Shown here: in pieces, positions 4,635 to 54,950 of the stretch
How the letters are laid out: each line of letters opens with the position of its first letter
Position numbering within the stretch: the first letter of the stretch is position 1
Assembly (NCBI GenBank): GCA_010093605.1
Contig: MU004195.1
Coordinates: 1,445,736-1,509,735 of the forward strand
Source of the DNA: Lophium mytilinum
Lineage: Eukaryota > Ascomycota > Dothideomycetes > Mytilinidiales > Mytilinidiaceae
DNA: 64,000 nucleotides
Reading direction: 5' to 3'
The notes under the pieces: model-generated
What the model saw: only the letters and a program-made list of their open reading frames with translations
What the model was told of the DNA's origin: nothing
Databases searched by the model: none
Translations under genes and position numbers: made by a program

Positions 4635-6774
4635 CTAGATGATCTTTACAATGGCGTCGTTGATGACTTCGGAATCTTTGAACCAGTCCTCAACAGCTGG
4701 CTGTGGTAGGTCCTGGCGTTGCTGGTATACCAGTAGGCCGATGCGTTCCCATGCGTTTTTCACCTGTCGTAGAACTAGGAGAAATAGGTAATGCTGATTC
4801 CAAGATGCGGCGTCTAGGTATAAGAATTTAAGACAGGCAATTCGACTTTTGAGGCCGACTTGATGCTCGCCGTCTGCAAGGAGATTGTAGTCTGCGTAGA
4901 AGCGACGGGAACTGATGTTTCGAAACTGACCAGGTATCTGTATCTCGCAGATGTCGGATGTGAGTTCTTCCGTGGTCGTGCCAAAGATCAGCTGGCCTTG
5001 CAAGATAATATGGCCCCCATTGAGAGCTCCCGTGGAGTCTGGTCCCGCGAGAGAGACATTGGCACTCAAGAACTTGGTATAAACGACGAGAGGGTTTTCG
5101 TGGTCATGGTCTCGAGCCTTTTCGGACGTCTTGTCGATGGTGCCCTGAAAGCGATATGCAATTGCATCAAGACCCGACTTTGCCTCTCTATTCGAGACGG
5201 AAGCCCAACTCCAGGTCGGCGCTCTCCAAAGTTTTGGCCGACAGAACGATTCTGGCGTTCTGGTCGTCCACAGCATATCCTGGGTCAAGGTGCTTTCCCA
5301 CAATCCTGCAAGATATCTAGACTGTATCGATTGTTCCATTTCCTTGACCGCGCCAGATATGGCAGGAAAGATGTCAGACTCGTACGTGAATTTCATCCGG
5401 CTGTAGTCAGTGACCATGTCTCTCCAGGCGTTGGCAGTCTGCGAGTCCGTGACTTGGTCGAGTATCAACTTCTGGTATTTTTGCTTGGGTTGCAACCAAT
5501 ATGTATCCCCTGGCAGTTCCATGCAGCTGCACGCACTTTGCGTCATACACTCCCACATCAGCTCGTGTTTGCCGAAGTGAAGTACGCGGGGACTCAGGAG
5601 GCGCTCTTGAAGTACCCAGCCTCGAGATGTGAGAGGATGGTCTGATGTAGAGTGTAATATTCTCAGCTTCTCTCGAACAAAGATACCCTTGTAGTCGGGC
5701 TGGTTGCAGATCCTGTCCAGTCCGTAACTTACTTTTCGTATTTTGGTTTGGCGGAAAAGGCCTTCTCCAGATCCAGAAGAGGCGCTAGCTGCCAAAGTAA
5801 TAGCTGCGTTGCGATAGATGTTGCCCATGATAATAGATTGCTGATTCCAGTCGTCGGAGTCTTCTTGGATAATACAGAGACTATCTATCCATAGATATCT
5901 GAACTGCAAGCGGCGGGTAAAATCTACAGCTTCCTGAAAGGTCTTAGGTAGAATCTTCCATGGAATGCTCTTCTTGTGATTGTCGATGTTTGCCCGTGTA
6001 GTTTGGAAATGCGGCTTTTCGCCCCAACAATGGCTTAGACACGCGTACATGCAGCTGGTGCCTGGTGGAATTTCTTGTAAAGTGACTTGTGGTTCAATTT
6101 CGGGAGCACCTAATCCTACATCGAGAACTCGATAGGTCACTGCGATCGGTCTGGTATTCTGGCCACACAAAGATCCGTGATTCGTGATGCAATCAACCAT
6201 CCATTTTCTCACAGTCTCTAAGCTTTCCTCTGATTTCGTATGGTCGGACATGGGAAAAACTAGCGGGACGGTCTTTGGTATTCGAGGATTTCCTGGCGTA
6301 AATTAGCTGCTGGATGACGAGTTTCTCTTAGTCTTCAAACGTGAGAAGCTGCCCCAAATAATAGACGCGCTCCAAGTTATGATAAAAAAGGCAAGGAAGA
6401 GATCAGTACTGACTTTCGAGAGCGCAAATCTCAAATTGTTCGCCACCAAACTTCACTTCCAATCCTGACCGGTGGACGCTTACAATACATAAATGGGAAG
6501 ATAAATGAGCATCTCTAGGCCAAGACAGCAAAGCATCGTAAGTGACGCGGCATAATGTGCAATTCGTTTCTATGGCGGAAGCTTTCAAGTATTCAATCGA
6601 GAATATCAGGGATGAACTGCCTAGACTGATATCCTTCAAACCCTTACACACTTCCTCGGCTGAGTATAAATTTGGAGAAGGCGTAAAGGAATAAGGATCG
6701 ACTGAGATGCTGTGTTGGTAAGCCTTTTCTGAGCTCTGCCGTACGCCTTCGGTGGGGATTCCGTGTGGATCCAT
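4635..6774 (-). CDS. HET-domain (heterokaryon incompatibility) protein
   Basis: Member of the fungal HET family. Family members act in non-self recognition and regulated cell death after hyphal fusion, although most genomic copies have no proven role. Exons join(6774..6414, 6292..4635): the 121 bp intron (GTCAGT donor, GCCAG acceptor) is phase 1 and joins CALE to RNPRIPKTVPLVF, giving 672 aa. The N-terminal exon carries CTLCRVTYDALL, a usual Cys-containing lead-in. The HET core shows YACLSHCWGE (about residue 210), YLWIDSLCIIQ, and NAAITLAAS followed by GEGLF; all three signature blocks are intact. The second half continues with RGWVLQERLLSPRVLHF and TWSWASV, the standard C-terminal extension. 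No NACHT, ankyrin or WD repeats follow, so this is a stand-alone HET protein. An unspliced reading starting at 6251 would lose the first 120 residues. Confidence 0.88.
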
Positions 6775-39775: not shown

Positions 39776-40790
39776 CGAGCGAAGCGCGGCCTACCACCAT
39801 ACCCGAGGCACGAAGTTTTCGATAGTATCTCTCTCCTCGATCTATGAAACGATGGAATGACGATGAAAAGATGCCCTGTGGCTGGCATTCGTCCAAACCC
39901 ATAATGATATCCAAAACAAAATATACAAGTACAGAAATCCTTCTCATTCCCAGCATAACACTACACCGGAGTGCCCATCCCTCGCAACACAACCCCTCGG
40001 CCTTCCCCAAGATCCCGAGTACGTAGAAAACACATCTCAGGCCCCCACCCACCGCGCCCCCTCCCGCGCAACAACGACGTCAACACACCAGCCCCCGCCA
40101 GTCTGCCTTAACCCTCCAAAATAACCCACGTAACACAGACTCCCAGTCGTCCAGTCACCGCACGGTTGCAAGTGGCTGTTCACTCTCCCCAACCACGGGA
40201 CACACACCCGCGCCTCAGCCACTCCGTGGCCAGACCGCGGCACAGCACGAACCTCAACATCCCCGGAAGGGATCGCGTAAATTTCCCATCGACGCCGCAT
40301 GCACAGGGGACGCTTACCCGCACGCCACACCTTGTTTTTTTTGCCGCGAGCGTGACGGGTTGCTGTTCCGGGAGGGGTGCCTGGCGGAGCCGCGCTGGGT
40401 GTCAGCTGTAAGGCTGAAGGATGCGGATCCTGGGCGGAGGATGATTTGTCTCAGGAGGCGGGCCTGGCCGCGAGTGATGGCTGCATGTTGGCGGCTTACT
40501 AACGTAGGGCTGAGCACGCACGGGGTTCGTGGAGGAAACAAACGCGGGTCAGTATTATGGCCCGCTGCGATGATGGTGGAAGTATATGCGTGGGCGAAGA
40601 GCATTCCTACATTCGAGCGGATGTCTGTAAGGTGGACTCACGGCCGCGGAGTGGGTGGATTTGCTTACAAATCGAGACCACGGCTCTTCAAGGTCCTTGT
40701 GCGATATACATCTTGCCGCAAATGTTGAGTGAATACGGAGTTGGTCAGTCCTCTCTTCGTCCCGCGTCTATATACTACCAAGCGTTTAAA
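39776..40790. other. Intergenic, no supported gene
   Basis: Only overlapping short ORFs without domains. TATATACT before 40790 may be the promoter element for the cupin gene. Confidence 0.4.
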
Positions 40791-41174
40791 ATGCACCAGC
40801 TCGAGTTCCCAACCGCTCCTCCTAACCTCCCCAACCCCTCCACTTCCGCCGCGGAGAACGCTCCCTGGTGCCTCATCGGGCCTGGGATCTGGGAACTGCC
40901 CCTCAACAGCTCTGCTCCCTCTTCTTTTGTGAAAGAGAGGTCTGTCCTGCAGTACTACGAACCGCACACTCCATCTGTTACAGATGCTATTATCACGCAC
41001 ACGTATATTGAAGAGGTGGTGATCTTGTCTGGAAGCTTGACGGATGTCAAGAAGGGGATTGCGGCGGTGCAGGGGAGCTATGCGTATAGGGAGCCGGGGA
41101 TGGAGCATGGACCGTATAGAGCAGGGGAAGAGGGGGTGTTGCAATTTGTTAAGGTGAGAGGTGAGGGGGTGTGA
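40791..41174 (+). CDS. Small cupin-domain protein
   Basis: 127 aa, intronless, ATG at 40791 preceded by AAA. A single beta-barrel cupin is suggested by HTYIEEVVILSGSLTD (motif-1-like, with one His and paired Glu) and by AYREPGMEHGPYRA (motif-2-like, Pro-Gly-x2-His). GVLQFVKV is the closing strand. Proteins of this type include fungal and bacterial ChrR-like cupins and small metal-binding isomerase/dioxygenase-like proteins; the enzyme activity, if any, is not predictable. The frame is open upstream to 40557 without family resemblance. Confidence 0.7.
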   Translation: MHQLEFPTAPPNLPNPSTSAAENAPWCLIGPGIWELPLNSSAPSSFVKERSVLQYYEPHTPSVTDAIITHTYIEEVVILSGSLTDVKKGIAAVQGSYAYREPGMEHGPYRAGEEGVLQFVKVRGEGV

Positions 41175-44100
41175 GGTTGAGGTGAAGGAGGAGGTGGGAG
41201 ATTGGGTTTGAGAGTGGGATTTGGGGAAGTGGAGAGGAAGAATGAAAGAGAGAGCTATGAGAGAGAGGCGAGTTTGAAAGGAAGAGGGGTAATAAGAGAG
41301 ATGGGAGTTGAGAGAGAAGGCAGGATGAGAGAATGGGGGTAAATGCACGAGAGAAGAATCAGATGGAGGGAGGAGTTGGAGAGGAAGATTAGTGAACTGT
41401 TTGGGATGTCAGGGACGGATGTCTATAACGCCGCCTATGACGCCGGCGCAGTTTGCGGACCGAGCCGTTTCGTATTCGGCTCGATGGATGGGTCTTGAGG
41501 GTTAAGGGTGCCTTGCGGCCTGGGCTAGAGAAAACGGTGTTCGTGATACACCGCGTTCGCATTCCTTTTGACGTCAGATGTTGGAGTTGGAGCCGGGTTC
41601 GTTTCAGGCACGGACGCGATGTGCTATACCCACTACTGCCTCATCTCATCCTTTCCGTTTTGCATGTCGAGGCTATGACTCTATTTGCGTATGGCACAAC
41701 GCAGGCACAGCGCGGTGCAGTCACCGTACAACCCACCAGCCTCGCCAATGCCACCTTCTCGAACTTAGCAACTCCCGAAACGAGTTTCCAGTGGACTCAC
41801 CTCCATCTCGGATATCAATAAATTAGCTGCTATATTCCCACAATGGCTAATGATCAAGATTATCCGAGCGGCCGCTTCACATGCCGCATTCCACGAATTT
41901 ACCCGGTGTGACAACCGATTCGCTTCCGCAACTGCGGCTCGTGTCTGTGTCTGCTGCAAGCCTCCCGCGCCCGCAGTCCGTACCTGAGCCGTACCGCCCG
42001 ATCTGCCACCAGCGACCGGGGCTGCTGATCGAGGAAGTGGCGACAAGCTGAAACGAAATTGAGTACCTAGTAGTGGGAACCGTTGCTTAGCGGCAACGGC
42101 GACTAGATCTCGGTGGCGTCAATCGAATCGGATTCCCCGCATCCTGAATGATGATGACACTTGACCATGGCGGCCGCACGTCTGTGTTTGGAGTTATGAT
42201 GCGACCCGGGTAGAGATTTGGTATTGAGTCAATGGCGTATGTTGTGTCATGGAAGCCTCGTCTGCCCTTGCTGTGGAACAGAAGATGGAAGGTTTCTCGT
42301 GGAACAGAACACCTTTGTAGAACAGAAAATGGAAGAGTGTGACGAATTTCAAATCGGGAAGGCAGGGGTTGACAAGGGAGTACAGGTGATGCGATGGCAT
42401 TACCTACTCCTTCTACCAAGTTTCAAGTATTGGCCCATACCTTTGGACGAATAAATTAATCCTACCCCCACGAAACATCCTCAGGAAGATCAAACGAGTG
42501 ATACTGCACGCTTTACTAAAACCAACAGTGGTAGTATGCGCGCGTAGGGGCTAGAAATGAATGGAATGATCTCCGAGAAAGAGAGAGTGCGGGTAAAGAC
42601 AGTCAAAAATAAGTCAGCAGCTTTGAAACCACAGAAATTTTGGCCCCCAAAATAGAATCTCGAGACTCGCCGTGGCTGGTGAGGTGGGATGTCATGGTGG
42701 TGAGCCACATCCCCGTCCATTTTCAGCACAAATGTCGCATAAATAGCTCGGAACGCCACTCCCTTCAGCCAATGGCGGAGATCTCGGTGGCCGGATTGAG
42801 CTCAAATGTCCCTTAATATGCACCAAAACGGAATATGAGGTGCACAGCCCGGGTCAGCCCTAGCGTTAGGGGCGGCAGGGGCATCGCGCTTGTTACAGCC
42901 TATGAAGGAAAATCAAAGCGTGTAAAGGGTTATTTTGGGTGGGTACCTGCAGCGCCCATCCTCTCCATCGGGCTCCAGCCTCGACCCGGGGACGGGGAAA
43001 GGATACCGGTGCAGGTTTGGCCCTGTTTGGATGCTGCGAGACTCGAGAGCCTGGCTCCTTGCTTCGTTGTGCGGCTCGTGCGTGCATACGTCTATCGACA
43101 TTCAATCTATGTGTCCGGAATGGAGCAGTGGTGTCTGCCTTCACTGCGATACTTGGCCCCCATGGATAGAGTGCACCCTGTGGTAATACAAGTAGGGGGC
43201 TCCCCCTCCACCTCCAGCGGGCACCTCGTGGCTCCAGTCGCACAAGCAAGGCGTCCCTTTGGCACGGGGAAAGTGTCTCAATTGTCTTGGAGTCGTTTGG
43301 AGCCGCGATTGGCATCTGTGTTAGACAAGGGAGAGCGATGGAGACCCGGTCGGCCGGCCGCAGCCCTCTATTGCTTCGTTAGGATCCCGAGTATTGGCTG
43401 TGATTCGCAGGGCACGATTTGGGATCTCGGAAGATGGCATTATTTTAGGAATGTAGCAGAGTGCGTCGGCCCATTAGCTGTTCAAGGCTGCGCGCCGGTG
43501 ACGGTGGAAGCTGGATAGACGCAGGTACAGCAAGAAGGCTCTCAGCAAACACAGAGACGAGTAGATTGAGGCTCGTGTGGCGCGAAGAAGATGCGCGCTC
43601 TCTCACCGACTAGAGTGGTTGTCGCCGAGCGCTGCGCAGTCGGGATCGCAGAACCGCCTACCGAGCTGAGAGTCTAGAGCACGGATCTCGATCCAACGCT
43701 GCGATGCAGTGCTGAAAGAACGAAACAATGGGAGAGGCCAGCTGTGATGATGCGCTTCTTGGTACTGTACAAGAGGAGACGCCGGGCAACGGGACTGGTC
43801 CATTGCAGATCGCCGTTCACATGCCGGCTTCATGCGCATGCAGGTATGACAGGTCGGCGATGAGTCTTTGACAGCCTCAGGCGCACTCGGATGCCCTCTC
43901 ACAAGAATGCTCTGGTGGACGGCGAGGCTTCAATAGGGGGGGAGCGATGGCCAGGTGAGCGATGAAGTCAGAGAAGGAGTGAATGCAACACTCGCATGGA
44001 GTTCCTGCTCGCATTCCTATCGCGGCAAGTATCGACGGCGAAGGATCTCTGGTTGCACCCACAGTGTGGAACGACGCCGATCAAACGCTTCCCCGGCCAC

Positions 44101-44870
44101 GTTGCGAGATCCGGCGGTGGGTAGTGCAACGGCGGCATCCCTGCGCGCAAACGCAGTGAATACAAGGGCCTCGAGGGCATGACTGTGCCGCCCAGGCCAA
44201 TGCCATTCACTCAACACCACCTGCACACAAGCGCGCTGGATCAAGAGGCGTTCGATCCATCCCGCGCCTGTCGCAATGCCCGATCGCCTCGCCGCACCGA
44301 GCGTGAATTGATGCCTCCGGTTCCGTCTCCGACTCTCTCCATCCATCTAGTACCTCTCCCAGGCTCCCGTCCCGTCCGTCGCGCCTCTCCGCGCCGCGCA
44401 CGAGAAGCACAACGGCCGCCGCAGAGCAGCTCGCACAGCGTCACACGTCGGATTCGTGATTTGAAATTAGGATTTCGAGCACCTGGAATCCTGGATTGCC
44501 TCCAGGGCCACGGCTCACCTCACCCGCACCCATGCGCAGCTCTTCCATCCCACGCTGCCCCGAAGCGCCAGGGCTGAACCAGGGTCTCAGCGCCGCCGCA
44601 TCCACTCCAGCGGGAGGCTTGTCAGGGCTTGTCCCCATAGCCACAACCCACTGCTCCCCTCACACCTGCACCCACCGCTCGTCCAACGGCTTCGACGCCG
44701 CCATCGCGAGGAAACGGGGCTTGGCCAGTGCAGGTGCCCTTTGCAACCGCTATGCACAGAACCACCCTTGTGTCTCCCGCAGGGGTCGAGAGTAATGCCC
44801 GTCCGCTGAGGCTACCCTCCCTCCCCTAGTGCCAGGCACCGATTGTGTAAAAGCACGCGCCAGAGGTGGA
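41175..44870. other. Long gene-poor interval upstream of the micropeptide transcription unit
   Basis: 3.7 kb, the longest such stretch in the window. It starts with a purine-rich tract (GAGAG/GGAGG, about 41170-41400) after the cupin gene. The remaining sequence has many overlapping ORFs on both strands (for example 42835-43518 plus), none with recognisable domains, splice-consistent extension or codon pattern resembling the genes around it. It may be an extended regulatory region or contain non-coding RNA; I see no tRNA or rRNA. Confidence 0.4.
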
Positions 44871-44876
44871 TATAAA
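44871..44876 (+). promoter_or_regulatory. TATA box of the micropeptide transcription unit
   Basis: TATAAA in the context GGATATAAAGGC. Its position fits transcription beginning around 44900. The sequence beyond it turns strongly CT/CA-rich, as in leaders of highly expressed fungal genes. Confidence 0.55.
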
Positions 44877-45320
44877 GGCAGAGTCCCCAGTTGTGGCCTG
44901 GAGAGTCATCATCATCACCACCAAGCATTCATCCATCCATCCATCCCACGCACCACACACACACAGCATCCAGTTACACGCCTCGCACGCGCGTTTCATT
45001 GTCTCGGCCTTCCATCCTTGCGCTTCCACTTGCTCTGCTCTGTTGCCTTCTCCTTGGGGTCATTTTCTATTCCGAGCGGCCTCCGCCTCTGCTGTCTTCT
45101 ACTGCGTTCTCTGCTTTATAAACAGCGTCTCCTTGAGTCATTTGCTTCCATCCATCACATCTCAACTTCCATCGGTCCTCAAGGCATCACATCTTCTCTA
45201 CACATCACCGCATCTCCGTCTCAGCGTTCTAGTCCGCAGTCACATATCATCGTCGTCACTTCAAGCATAGCAATCATATCGTCCTTCTCAACCATCTTCA
45301 TCAACATCTTCATATTCTCC
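44877..45320 (+). promoter_or_regulatory. ATG-free pyrimidine-rich 5' leader
   Basis: I scanned these 444 bases by eye and found no ATG in any frame; about six to seven would be expected in random sequence. CATCC and CACACA runs occur near 44930-44965. No strong splice donor (GTAAGT/GTATGT/GTGAGT) is seen. The frame open through this stretch (44829-45344) therefore has no ATG to start it before the one at 45321. A leader selected to let scanning ribosomes reach 45321 is the simplest reading. Confidence 0.6.
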
Positions 45321-45344
45321 ATGGGTCGCGGCGGCTACAACTAG
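45321..45344 (+). CDS. Micropeptide ORF 1: MGRGGYN
   Basis: Seven codons plus TAG; the first ATG after the TATA box at 44871. Context is T at -3 and G at +4, so initiation may be leaky. Codons are ATG GGT CGC GGC GGC TAC AAC. It is preceded by the ATG-free leader and followed by 113 bases with no ATG before the second copy. I recognise no protein family; the GRGG core only loosely recalls RGG-type and DUF3602 proteins. It is too short for ordinary gene finders. Confidence 0.6.
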   Translation: MGRGGYN

Positions 45345-45457
45345 ACGCTTTCCACCAGATCACACAAGTTCAGCAGGACCAGACGACACCAAGCCCACGC
45401 ACCAAGCCAAGAGGCGCCCTACACTACCCACAACCACCACCCGTCCCAGCCATCATC

Positions 45458-45481
45458 ATGGGCCGCGGCGGATACAACTAG
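45458..45481 (+). CDS. Micropeptide ORF 2: MGRGGYN (identical peptide)
   Basis: Seven codons plus TAG; the second ATG after the TATA box. It differs from ORF 1 at two bases, GGT/GGC in codon 2 and GGC/GGA in codon 5, both silent. Starts are 137 bases apart, so the two copies are in different frames and cannot be one protein. The flanking DNA on either side is not similar between copies. Context is A at -3 and G at +4, stronger than ORF 1. Shortly downstream, CCGGA and TCCGG form a small hairpin. The next ATG (45573) opens a trivial three-codon frame. Confidence 0.6.
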   Translation: MGRGGYN

Positions 45482-46018
45482 AGGACCGGAAATCCGGAGT
45501 TCCAACACCCCACTCAACACCCGACCGCATATCGCAGCGGTCAACTACCACAATTCCCACTCCATGATATTATAACCACATCCCACGCGGCTTTGTATAT
45601 ATGGCGGCTTCTTCATATTCCCATTCTTACCAGCACAATGACGACGATAAACGGGGCGGTTTTCGGGAGGAGGGAGTGAGGTGGATGCGGCGGCGGAGGA
45701 AGGAGGAGGTTGTAGAGCGTTCTGATTTCGATTTCCCTTCTTGTTCTTCAGCATTGCGAGCGGTCCAGCGATTTGGGCTAGAGGTTTCTTTTGCGCAGCG
45801 TTCTTGTCTTTTTCCTTCTCTCTGCGTTTCTTCCGGCATTGTTCCTGTTTTCCAGCGAGCATTGCTACGGCACGGCTATTTCGTCTTTCCTACTCAATCT
45901 GCATTTCCTGCCTGCTATTCCTGCGTTTCCCGCTTTGCATTTGTTGTCGCATTCGCATTTAGCCCTCTATTCCATATCCCATATCCAAATTCGAACCTCG
46001 TGTCGCCCGACCCGGCTA
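45482..46018. other. 3' region of the micropeptide unit, convergent with MSS1
   Basis: No supported gene. Overlapping ORFs on both strands (45545-45862 minus; 45601-46164 plus) show low-complexity Lys/Arg/Gln or Ser-rich composition and no domain. The plus ORF runs through the last MSS1 exon and intron, so at most one is real. Confidence 0.4.
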
Positions 46019-48136
46019 CTACTTCCCCACACAGAACCTGCACTCGCGAAACACAGATTAGCAAAAGCTCATTGCGCAACCCTTCTCGAACGTTGAGACC
46101 TGAAACACCGGGGGCCGGGAGGGCCCGGATGGTGCCACAGACCGGTCAAGAAAAAGCCGTTTGACTTAGGCAGCACATGTGATGCGGAGAGAGGGCGCTA
46201 TGACTCACTTTTCGAATACGACCCCCAAGACCTCCTCGACGTCTCCCGCTTCGCCTCGGCCCGTGATCCGCGCCATGCTGTCTGCCGCCGCGCGGAGGGA
46301 CTCAGCTGCGATGACGATGTCGATGTCCATTTCGGCGTTCTCTTCTGCTGTTTCTGGCGCGAGTTTGCCTTCCCAGAGCGGGTCCTGGGCTAGTGGTCGT
46401 GGTTCATGGTGAGAGATGTCGGCTGCGCCGACGGCAGTGAGGAAGGCTTCGAGGTGGTCCAGACATTCGGAGAGCAGGACTCGCTGGCGTTCTGTGGCGC
46501 CGAGAGACTCTTGCCAGATTGATGCGTCGGGTATGTCGTCGGTGGATTCAGAGTCTGGGATCAGGGCAGAGGTCATGGATTTGAAGGTTGAGATGAGTCC
46601 TTGGAGGAAAGATTGGACGTTTCCTGGGTCGGAATCAGAGGAATTGGCGTCAGATGTAATAGCGTTTCTGCATGAAATGAAAAAGACGCGGTCGGATGGT
46701 ACGTCGAGGGCAGATTGAATCGTTTCTTTCCATCGTGCTTCAGATGCTGTGGCGTTCGAGAGTTTGTCTACCTTGTTGATAGCAACGACGACATTGATGC
46801 CGAGATCCACACATTCCCTGGCTGTCGCTTTGACCTCGGGGTCGATATCCTTTGAAGCATCCTGAACCACGATCAAAACATCCGACTCAAGCGCGCGCTG
46901 CTTAGCCCTCTTAATCCCCTCTTCCTCGACAGCACCCACCAGCCCCTCTCCACCCCCTAACCCATCCCCACCCGCTAACCCAGCCCTCCTCAACCCCGCC
47001 ATATCCCCTAGCCGCACCAACCACCCCCCAAGATCCACCCCCACCTCCACCACATCCCTCGTCGTCCCAGCCTCCGCCGCCACAATCGCCGCCTCCCGCC
47101 CCACAATCCGATTCAGCAAACTGCTCTTCCCCGCATTCGGCGCCCCCAGCAACGCCACCCCAATCCCGCTCCGCAACAGTTCGCCCCTGACCGCATTCGC
47201 GCGATGCGCCTCAATCTGCCGCTTCAACCGCCGTATCTGCCCCGCGACGGACGCGCATAACTCAACCGGCGACTCGTCGAAGTGCTGGTCCTCGGAGAAG
47301 TCGATCAGCGCCTCCAGCTCCCCGCGCGCGAGCAGGAGCAGCCGGCGCCAGCTCTCGTAGCGCGCGGCGAGCGAGGAGGTGGTGCCGCGCACGGAGAGCT
47401 GGCGCTGTTGCTCGGTGGTGGCGGAGAGGGTGTCGCCGAGGGCTTCGATTTGGGGGAGGGTTAGGCGGTTGTTGGTGAAGGCGCGGCGGGTGAATTCGCC
47501 GGGTTCGGCGTAGCGGATGCGGGGTGGAGGATGGAGGGTTGCTGAGGGGGGGAGGCATTGCGGGATGGCGGCGAGGACGGCGCGGATGATGGCGGGGCCG
47601 CCGTGGATGTGGAGTTCAAGGATGTCTTCGCCTGTGACGGTGTGCGGGGAGGGGAAGTGGAGGATTAGGGCGCCGGAGTCGAGGACGGTGGAGGGGGAGG
47701 GGGGGAGGTGGGGGGTGTAGAGGCGGCGGAGGGTTGCGTGGCGGGGTTTTGGGAGGGGTTTGAGGGGGCAGAGGGATTGGTATATCTAGGAGGAGGGAGT
47801 TGGGTTAGAATGAGGCTATGATTGATGATGATGATTGATGGAGGGTGAAATTACCTGAAGGCATGCCGGACCTGATATGCGTATTACGGCTATGGCGGCT
47901 TTGCCCGGAGCGGTGGATAGGGCGTATATGGTAGAGTCTTCATGATGAATGACACTTGAATTGCCAGTATGATAATTGCGATGAGATTTTGGGCTCAAGG
48001 GCCTTCGTGAGAAAGGTGTAACATGATTGCGACAAGCGCTGTAGTTTCTCCCAACTAGCAATTGGACGACAGGTAAAGGACGACTCGGACAGTTGATTCG
48101 CGGTAGGTGCTTGTAAAGACACTGCAGAGCTCTCAT
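46019..48136 (-). CDS. MSS1: Mitochondrial tRNA modification GTPase Mss1 (MnmE/TrmE family)
   Basis: Mitochondrial GTPase which, with Mto1 (MnmG), installs the 5-carboxymethylaminomethyl-type group on U34 of tRNAs. Exons join(48136..47855, 47785..46209, 46037..46019), 625 aa. An Arg/Ser-rich leader (about 60 residues) fits a mitochondrial presequence. TIYALSTAPGKAAIAVIRISG opens the MnmE N-domain, and GEFTRRAFTNNRLTLPQIEAL is its signature. The G domain has GAPNAGKSSL, TTRD, DMAG and NKVD. The C-terminal CxGK motif is supplied by a 19-nt last exon (FCVGK stop) after a 171 bp intron; without it the protein would end at VVFEK and lack the catalytic Cys. Confidence 0.93.
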
Positions 48137-53985: not shown

Positions 53986-54007
53986 TGGATATGGGATGCT
54001 TCAAATC

Positions 54008-54950
54008 AGACTACCTTTGGACCAAACGGTCACCTGCTAGCTGGGGTACTCTTGACAGTGGTATCAAGCAAGCAAAACTGGAGCTGGAAATGGAAGAGTT
54101 GAAGGCAGGATTCTTCAATGGTCTGGCGTTTCACATCTAGGCCGTACCAGACTACCTTTGTACCAAACGGTCACAAACTAGCTGGGGTACCTCTAACGGT
54201 GGTATCAATCAAGAAAAACTTAAGTTGAGACGGTACTTTATGGGAGAGGTGAATGAAAGATTATTCAATGGTCTGGAGCTTTCAATCTGGGCTTTTCCAG
54301 ACTAGATTTTGACCAAAAGGTCACATGCTAGCTGGGCGACCTCTGACGGTGGTGGCAATCAAGAAAAGCTGAAGCTGGAACAGTGCAATATCTACATGTC
54401 TGTGCGTATGGTATGAAATCTGTGTAGTATGGAAGAGGTAATTACATGACTCCTCAAATCAGACTCCCTTTTGACCAAACCGACACGTTCTGGCTGGGCC
54501 ACCTCTGACAGTGGTGTCAAGCAAGCAAAACTGAAGTTGGAACGGTGCAATATTCTTTTGTCTGCGCATTTGGGAGAGAAACTCTGTAGTATGGGGTAGG
54601 TGAATGCAGGACTCTTTATACCAGACTACCTTCTGACCAAACAGACATGTGCTAGCTGGACCACCCTTGATAGTGGTATCAAGCAAGCAGAGTATAAGTT
54701 GGCGCAGTGTAATGTTCATGTGTCTGCGCATATGCTAAGGAATCTGTGTAGTATGTGAGAGGTGAATTCAGGACTATTAAAACCAGGCTACCTTTTGACC
54801 GCATGGTCACATGCTAGCTGGGCCACCTTTGACAGTGGTATTAAGTAAGCAGAACTGAAGATGAAACAGCGTAAGATTGCGTGTCCGTGCATATGGCCTA
54901 GTTTGTATCCTGGTATAGAAGTGGAAGACTCCGGGACTCGAATATACTAC
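54008..54950. repeat. Six-copy tandem repeat, period 141-162 bp
   Basis: Units start at 54008, 54149, 54299, 54461, 54623 and 54785, each opening AGACTACCTT-like, followed by GACCAAACGGTCAC, GCTAGCTGGG and GACAGTGGTATCAAGCAAGC. Spacing is 141, 150, then 162 three times, so the last units keep one exact period. Divergence between copies is moderate (roughly 20-30% by eye). The minus strand carries a recurring open peptide including LLDTTVKGGPAS and FGQK in units 4-6. No transposase, and no similar copy elsewhere in the window. Confidence 0.88.

Follow-up and report, generated by a model that had tools for sequence, protein, structure and literature searches.

Two micro-ORFs on the forward strand of the window (the whole analysed stretch of 64,000 nucleotides from Lophium mytilinum) encode the same heptapeptide, MGRGGYN, and both terminate at TAG. 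Micro-ORF 1 (45321..45344; ATGGGTCGCGGCGGCTACAACTAG) has the start context TATTCTCC-ATG-GG, and micro-ORF 2 (45458..45481; ATGGGCCGCGGCGGATACAACTAG) the context CCATCATC-ATG-GG. The ORFs differ by two silent changes, one in codon 2 (GGT/GGC) and one in codon 5 (GGC/GGA), and their offset of 137 nt places them in different frames. The coordinates, peptide, stop codon, silent differences, offset, and frames are all as described in a first-pass annotation of this DNA. The match itself, given there as the 24-base ORFs, is one base longer on each side. It forms a 26-nt direct repeat on the plus strand (45320..45345 and 45457-45482, 24/26 identical), whose ends lie no more than 1 nt from the ATG and the stop codon. 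The repeat finder gave no extension past 26 nt, and the regions flanking the twin ORFs look unrelated. Between the ORFs lies a CA-rich, ATG-free spacer of 113 nt (45345..45457).

The pair is situated in a probably non-coding gap some 5 kb wide. On the 3' side, this gap is bounded by the 3' part of a convergent MnmE/MSS1-type GTPase gene (46205..47002, minus strand), which is identified by Pfam and by its coding signal. GTP_EFTU scored above the Pfam cut-off and MnmE_helical (E 5.7e-5) below it, so that the label MSS1 is likely rather than certain. In a hexamer profile of the region from 38 to 50 kb, a clear coding signal appears on the minus strand from 46.4 kb and a peak on the plus strand near 40.9 kb. 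The printed values from approximately 41.2 to 46.2 kb peak at 0.11 and 0.10, under the coding mark of 0.12, in a profile that was printed every 240 nt and is insensitive (−0.05 in one window inside the cupin ORF at 40557-41174). Elsewhere, the window encodes proteins with HET, PigL_N, and ULD_2 domains, a set consistent with a filamentous ascomycete; a 538-aa ORF (4635-6251, minus strand) carries a HET (heterokaryon incompatibility) domain with an E-value of 1e-33. A degenerate repeat array occupies 54001-54869, with 3.5 copies of a 162-nt unit at 54297-54869 (75% matches) and related copies from about 54001.

Coding potential of the gap and the putative transcript

The next ORFs 3' of the twins are MIL (45564) and a frame of 187 aa (45601..46164, plus strand). 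The latter has a codon score of −0.052, which is below 93 of the 94 coding chunks, and no Pfam match; on these grounds it was rejected as the main protein and is not considered a gene. Codon scoring of this kind is coarse: the non-coding yardstick consists of only four overlapping ORFs, which score between about −0.08 and 0.06, and the Pfam-supported cupin ORF at 40557-41174 receives just 0.022. Upstream of the twins, a 227-aa ORF (42835-43518, plus strand) has a codon score of −0.105 and no Pfam match, and its non-coding-like character suggests that this part of the gap is probably intergenic. A splice-site scan of 44881-46250 gave one donor, at 45676. A long spliced protein was rejected, the longest frame under simple intron rules being 82 aa and otherwise unsupported. 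The reading frames are open upstream of the twin ORFs for 175 codons (ORF 1) and 75 codons (ORF 2), with no in-frame ATG below the first TATA-like box; that the twins are the 3' ends of spliced coding exons was rejected solely because no matching acceptor signals were seen by eye. Around the twin ORFs, the analysis revealed no further frame that is credible as coding sequence.

Two TATA-like boxes (both TATAAA) upstream of the pair, at 44871..44876 and 45117..45122 on the plus strand, may serve as a promoter element and an alternative to it. In agreement with the first-pass annotation, which named one TATA box, the first two ATGs of the plus strand below these boxes are the starts of the twin ORFs at 45321 and 45458. 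A pyrimidine-rich stretch of 441 nt (44880..45320, plus strand) would form the 5' leader. It contains no ATG versus a Markov mean of 4.17 (P 0.008), and an equal lack of ATGs is found in 4.8% of genome windows of the same length. In the wider region 44905-45563, the two ATGs compare with 4.33 expected (P 0.18), a count reached in 7.5% of genome windows and not unusual. For three shorter segments, the test was uninformative because the Markov mean is zero there. The composition is pyrimidine-rich at 44900-45300, becomes CA-rich around the twin ORFs, and shifts again after 45600; TATATA (45596) followed by GATAAA (45646), together spanning 45596..45651 on the plus strand, are possible 3'-end signals.

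Start contexts were scored with a matrix derived from 58 long ORFs by taking the first ATG of each, which is not a verified start. Ranked against all ATGs of a 264-kb background sample, micro-ORF 1 is at the 76th percentile and micro-ORF 2 at the 94th; among the 58 long-ORF starts they are at the 40th and the 69th, respectively. The start of the MIL ORF, at the 83rd percentile of all ATGs, ranks above that of micro-ORF 1. No RNA fold common to both copies was detected; their predicted folds differ, and each copy folds no better than shuffled sequences (z −0.21, −0.73, 0.62, and 1.46). A search of 43400-46400 with the Rfam covariance models gave no match at E-values up to 1.

Frequency of the repeat in the genome

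A pattern encoding MGRGGYN plus a following T was matched at least twice in the assembly of 43,183,309 bases (24 contigs), both times at the twin locus, and its reversed control gave no match. A pattern for GRGGYN followed by TRR (TAA, TAG, TGA, or TGG) likewise had at least two matches versus none for its control; counts from genome pattern searches are lower bounds throughout. The exact pattern was matched twice in the window and never in 100 shuffles. The background sample of 264 kb comprised 21 sequences: the window itself plus twenty 10-kb stretches taken from contigs C1-C7. Its 5,345 ORFs of 5-60 codons yielded 1,349 non-overlapping pairs of the same length at most 1 kb apart, of which one, the MGRGGYN twins, was identical. 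Among same-length pairs of at least six codons in this sample, none besides the twins came within two residues of identity. Within 44905-45600 (696 nt), the most similar 24-mers agree at 22/24 positions; in 200 Markov simulations of this stretch the best was 20/24, obtained once, and 22/24 was never reached. The pair is a real repeat above chance, since it is rare in genome and sample and its 22/24 match lies beyond the simulations.

Repeats of comparable quality do occur elsewhere. A scan of the 264 kb for 24-mers matching in at least 22 of 24 positions at a distance of 30-1000 nt, filtered for simple sequence, returned 20 rows, which we grouped into nine places including the twin locus; two of the other eight are repeat clusters. 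Complete 24-nt ORFs with two additional nucleotides made up 612 of the 526,908 sampled 26-mers. Approximately 1.5 ORF-sized repeat coincidences are therefore expected in the genome before other evidence is considered (8 places × 0.00116 × 43.18/0.264), so that the coincidence of the repeat with an ORF is not decisive on its own.

Further copies were sought within the window and the genome. A third copy with up to three mismatches is absent from the window, and the only genome match of the 781-bp stretch 44880-45660 is itself. With up to three mismatches, eight matches including the twins occur in the genome, and the reversed control has 14. The near copy that matches best (two mismatches) lies on the minus strand at C14:638018-638038 and ends a 10-codon ORF, MSNDGRDGYN-stop; it is probably due to chance because the control has more matches at this threshold. 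Starts of the form MGRGG[YF] number nine in the genome versus four for the control pattern. Of those elsewhere, three on the plus strand were rejected as further micro-ORFs because they run on into longer frames, and four on the minus strand because none is followed by AAY and TRR. The exact pattern gave no match in viral contigs or in prokaryote genome contigs; neither collection is fungal, and these zeros are therefore silent on conservation among fungi. In the same non-fungal viral contigs, no relative was found for the terminal 265 aa of the MnmE-like protein.

Possible constraint on, and function of, the heptapeptide

Both differences between the copies leave the peptide intact. With equal weights, 96 of the 2,484 possible double substitutions of micro-ORF 1 (3.9%) are silent, which gives a P of about 0.039, a value that takes all substitutions as equally likely and concerns two events only. 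Neither of the two changes is a replacement in the ATG frame, versus two replacements in each of the other frames (WVAAATT/WAAADTT and GSRRLQL/GPRRIQL). By our count, the copies are unlike at two of their seven degenerate third positions. Synonymous change is thus below full divergence, and the copies may be young, their codons biased, or their nucleotides constrained as well. The first-pass annotation had taken conservation with silent change as the mark of selection on a translated peptide. The coincidence of the repeat unit with a whole ORF, the silence of both changes, the position at the first ATGs, where ribosomes that scan would begin, and the lack of another credible coding sequence on the putative transcript argue for this view, although the silent changes contribute a P of only about 0.039. 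Judged from these features, selection at the peptide level appears to be the best reading, not a proven one.

The explanation that we favor, tentatively and at a little less than an even chance, is a gene for a trans-acting micropeptide with two identical ORFs on one mRNA, working like the insect gene tal/pri. A small RNA polymerase II transcript, initiated downstream of either TATA-like box, would contain the twin heptapeptide ORFs as its sole protein-coding content. Scanning ribosomes would translate ORF 1; leaky scanning or reinitiation would allow them to translate ORF 2 too, which is better placed, and the same peptide would be made twice per mRNA. The glycine at position 2 suggests removal of the initiator methionine, in which case the product would be GRGGYN. 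This peptide would act in trans, and selection on it would hold both copies. The ORFs, their identity, their silent differences, and the lack of ATGs ahead of them are observed; transcription, translation, selection, and action in trans are what we infer. Several observations count against this explanation. The largely unchanged synonymous positions fit youth of the copies or nucleotide-level constraint equally well, the start context of micro-ORF 1 is poorer than the one at MIL, and eight other places in 264 kb hold 24-mers equally similar within 1 kb. In addition, the number of ATGs over the whole of 44905-45563 is not unusual, and the coding measures behind the lack of another protein are coarse.

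The main rival explanation places the function in cis. The nascent heptapeptide would stall the terminating ribosome, or the two ORFs would meter reinitiation, and either way RNA stability or downstream use would be controlled, as by some uORFs; the peptide may then matter within the ribosome itself, with no need for a free product. The first place on the leader and a constraint at the peptide level fit this mechanism equally well. The length is near that of the six-residue MAGDIS uORF of human AMD1 (PMC9648851), and a fungal precedent is described in the arginine attenuator peptide of Neurospora crassa arg-2, a conserved fungal uORF peptide of 24 residues (PMC9604717). These regulatory uORFs are very short leader ORFs in which the peptide matters, as may hold for the twins. 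However, a main ORF follows there, whereas none that is credible was found here, and two identical copies are present. The non-coding-like 187-aa frame begins only after the further ORF MIL and has a start context at the 64.5th percentile of all ATGs, splicing under simple intron rules opens no more than the 82 aa, and the space is closed at 46205 by the convergent gene. Moreover, most uORFs keep features other than their amino-acid sequence, according to a review (PMC9604717). We rank a role in cis second and consider it somewhat unlikely.

Alternatively, the pair might be an untranslated accident, in which a templated microduplication of 26 nt happened to hold one whole small ORF and two neutral changes followed. 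The unrelated flanks, from which the first-pass annotation had concluded that there was no recent duplication, are real, but the conclusion is wrong in its logic: a templated insertion of 26 nt itself leaves unrelated flanks, and a recent one is compatible with them. The eight other places with similar 24-mers and the 1.5 or so coincidences expected in 43.18 Mb also favor such an event, although two of these eight places are repeat clusters. It would further have to yield two silent changes (P 0.039) and to fall on the two ATGs that come first after a stretch lacking ATGs, of a kind seen in about 5% of genome windows. Both factors were chosen post hoc and are not wholly independent of each other. 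We rate the accident as unlikely. A repeated nucleotide element, such as a binding site for a DNA- or RNA-binding protein whose ORF form is incidental, would account for nucleotides more alike (only two of the seven third positions differing) than the peptide alone requires, but is very unlikely given the lack of a common fold, of stability beyond shuffles, and of an Rfam match, the near copies that are not in excess of the control, and repeat ends that coincide with the start and stop codons.

Relation to known micropeptide systems

The favored reading as a trans-acting micropeptide gene draws on tal/pri/mlpt of insects, which is described as a 1.5-kb mRNA with four smORFs encoding peptides of 11-32 aa that have the common core LDPTGQY (PMC11475943). 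The fungal locus, where the single transcript is presumed, shares with it the occurrence of one peptide core in more than one tiny ORF and the lack of a long coding ORF. In the fungus there are two ORFs, the whole peptide is identical, and it has seven residues. The resemblance to tal/pri put forward in the first-pass annotation therefore stands for the layout and not for the sequence: the LDPTGQY core is absent from MGRGGYN, and the likeness is at most a functional analogy. The heptapeptide would be, to our knowledge, the shortest product of a tal/pri-like micropeptide gene. The plant gene ENOD40 is similar in being a short RNA with little besides very small conserved ORFs; its peptides are longer and are not identical twins.

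The GRGG core is shared with DUF3602/Par32 proteins and their GRGGAGN repeats, but the AGN part is missing from MGRGGYN and the likeness is short and of low complexity. DUF3602 (PF12223) has five Pfam matches in the genome, none of them at the twin locus; a peptide of seven residues is too short for this test to be fair. One DUF3602 protein (C1:1736319-1736558) holds MGRGGAGN inside a longer frame and thereby resembles the start of the heptapeptide; mimicry between the two is possible. Solved structures gave no match to the heptapeptide, a search with little power at such a length. For MGRGGYN, no paper was found, and the papers among the matches listed for RGGYN concern, by title, RGG boxes, nuclear import, or unrelated subjects. 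Among the matches listed for a fungal twin micropeptide gene, none was found by titles and abstract starts. The shortest ORF given in the available text of a fungal sORF survey has 11 residues (PMC7394265), and that of a 2025 review of fungal lncRNAs uses the word "peptide" once (PMC12566771).

Usual gene finding does not reach down to ORFs of seven codons, and the recurrence of an identical micro-ORF hints at peptide function from a single genome, with no need for expression data. It is possible, though we put it somewhat below an even chance, that this fungus has a gene encoding one heptapeptide twice per mRNA under selection for the peptide, and that the layout of tal/pri has arisen independently in fungi. 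If relatives confirm the pair, such twins could be sought across entire fungal genomes, and the existence of polycistronic micropeptide genes in fungi would become directly testable. If both relatives and ribosome data confirm it, the twin locus would be a fungal micropeptide gene.
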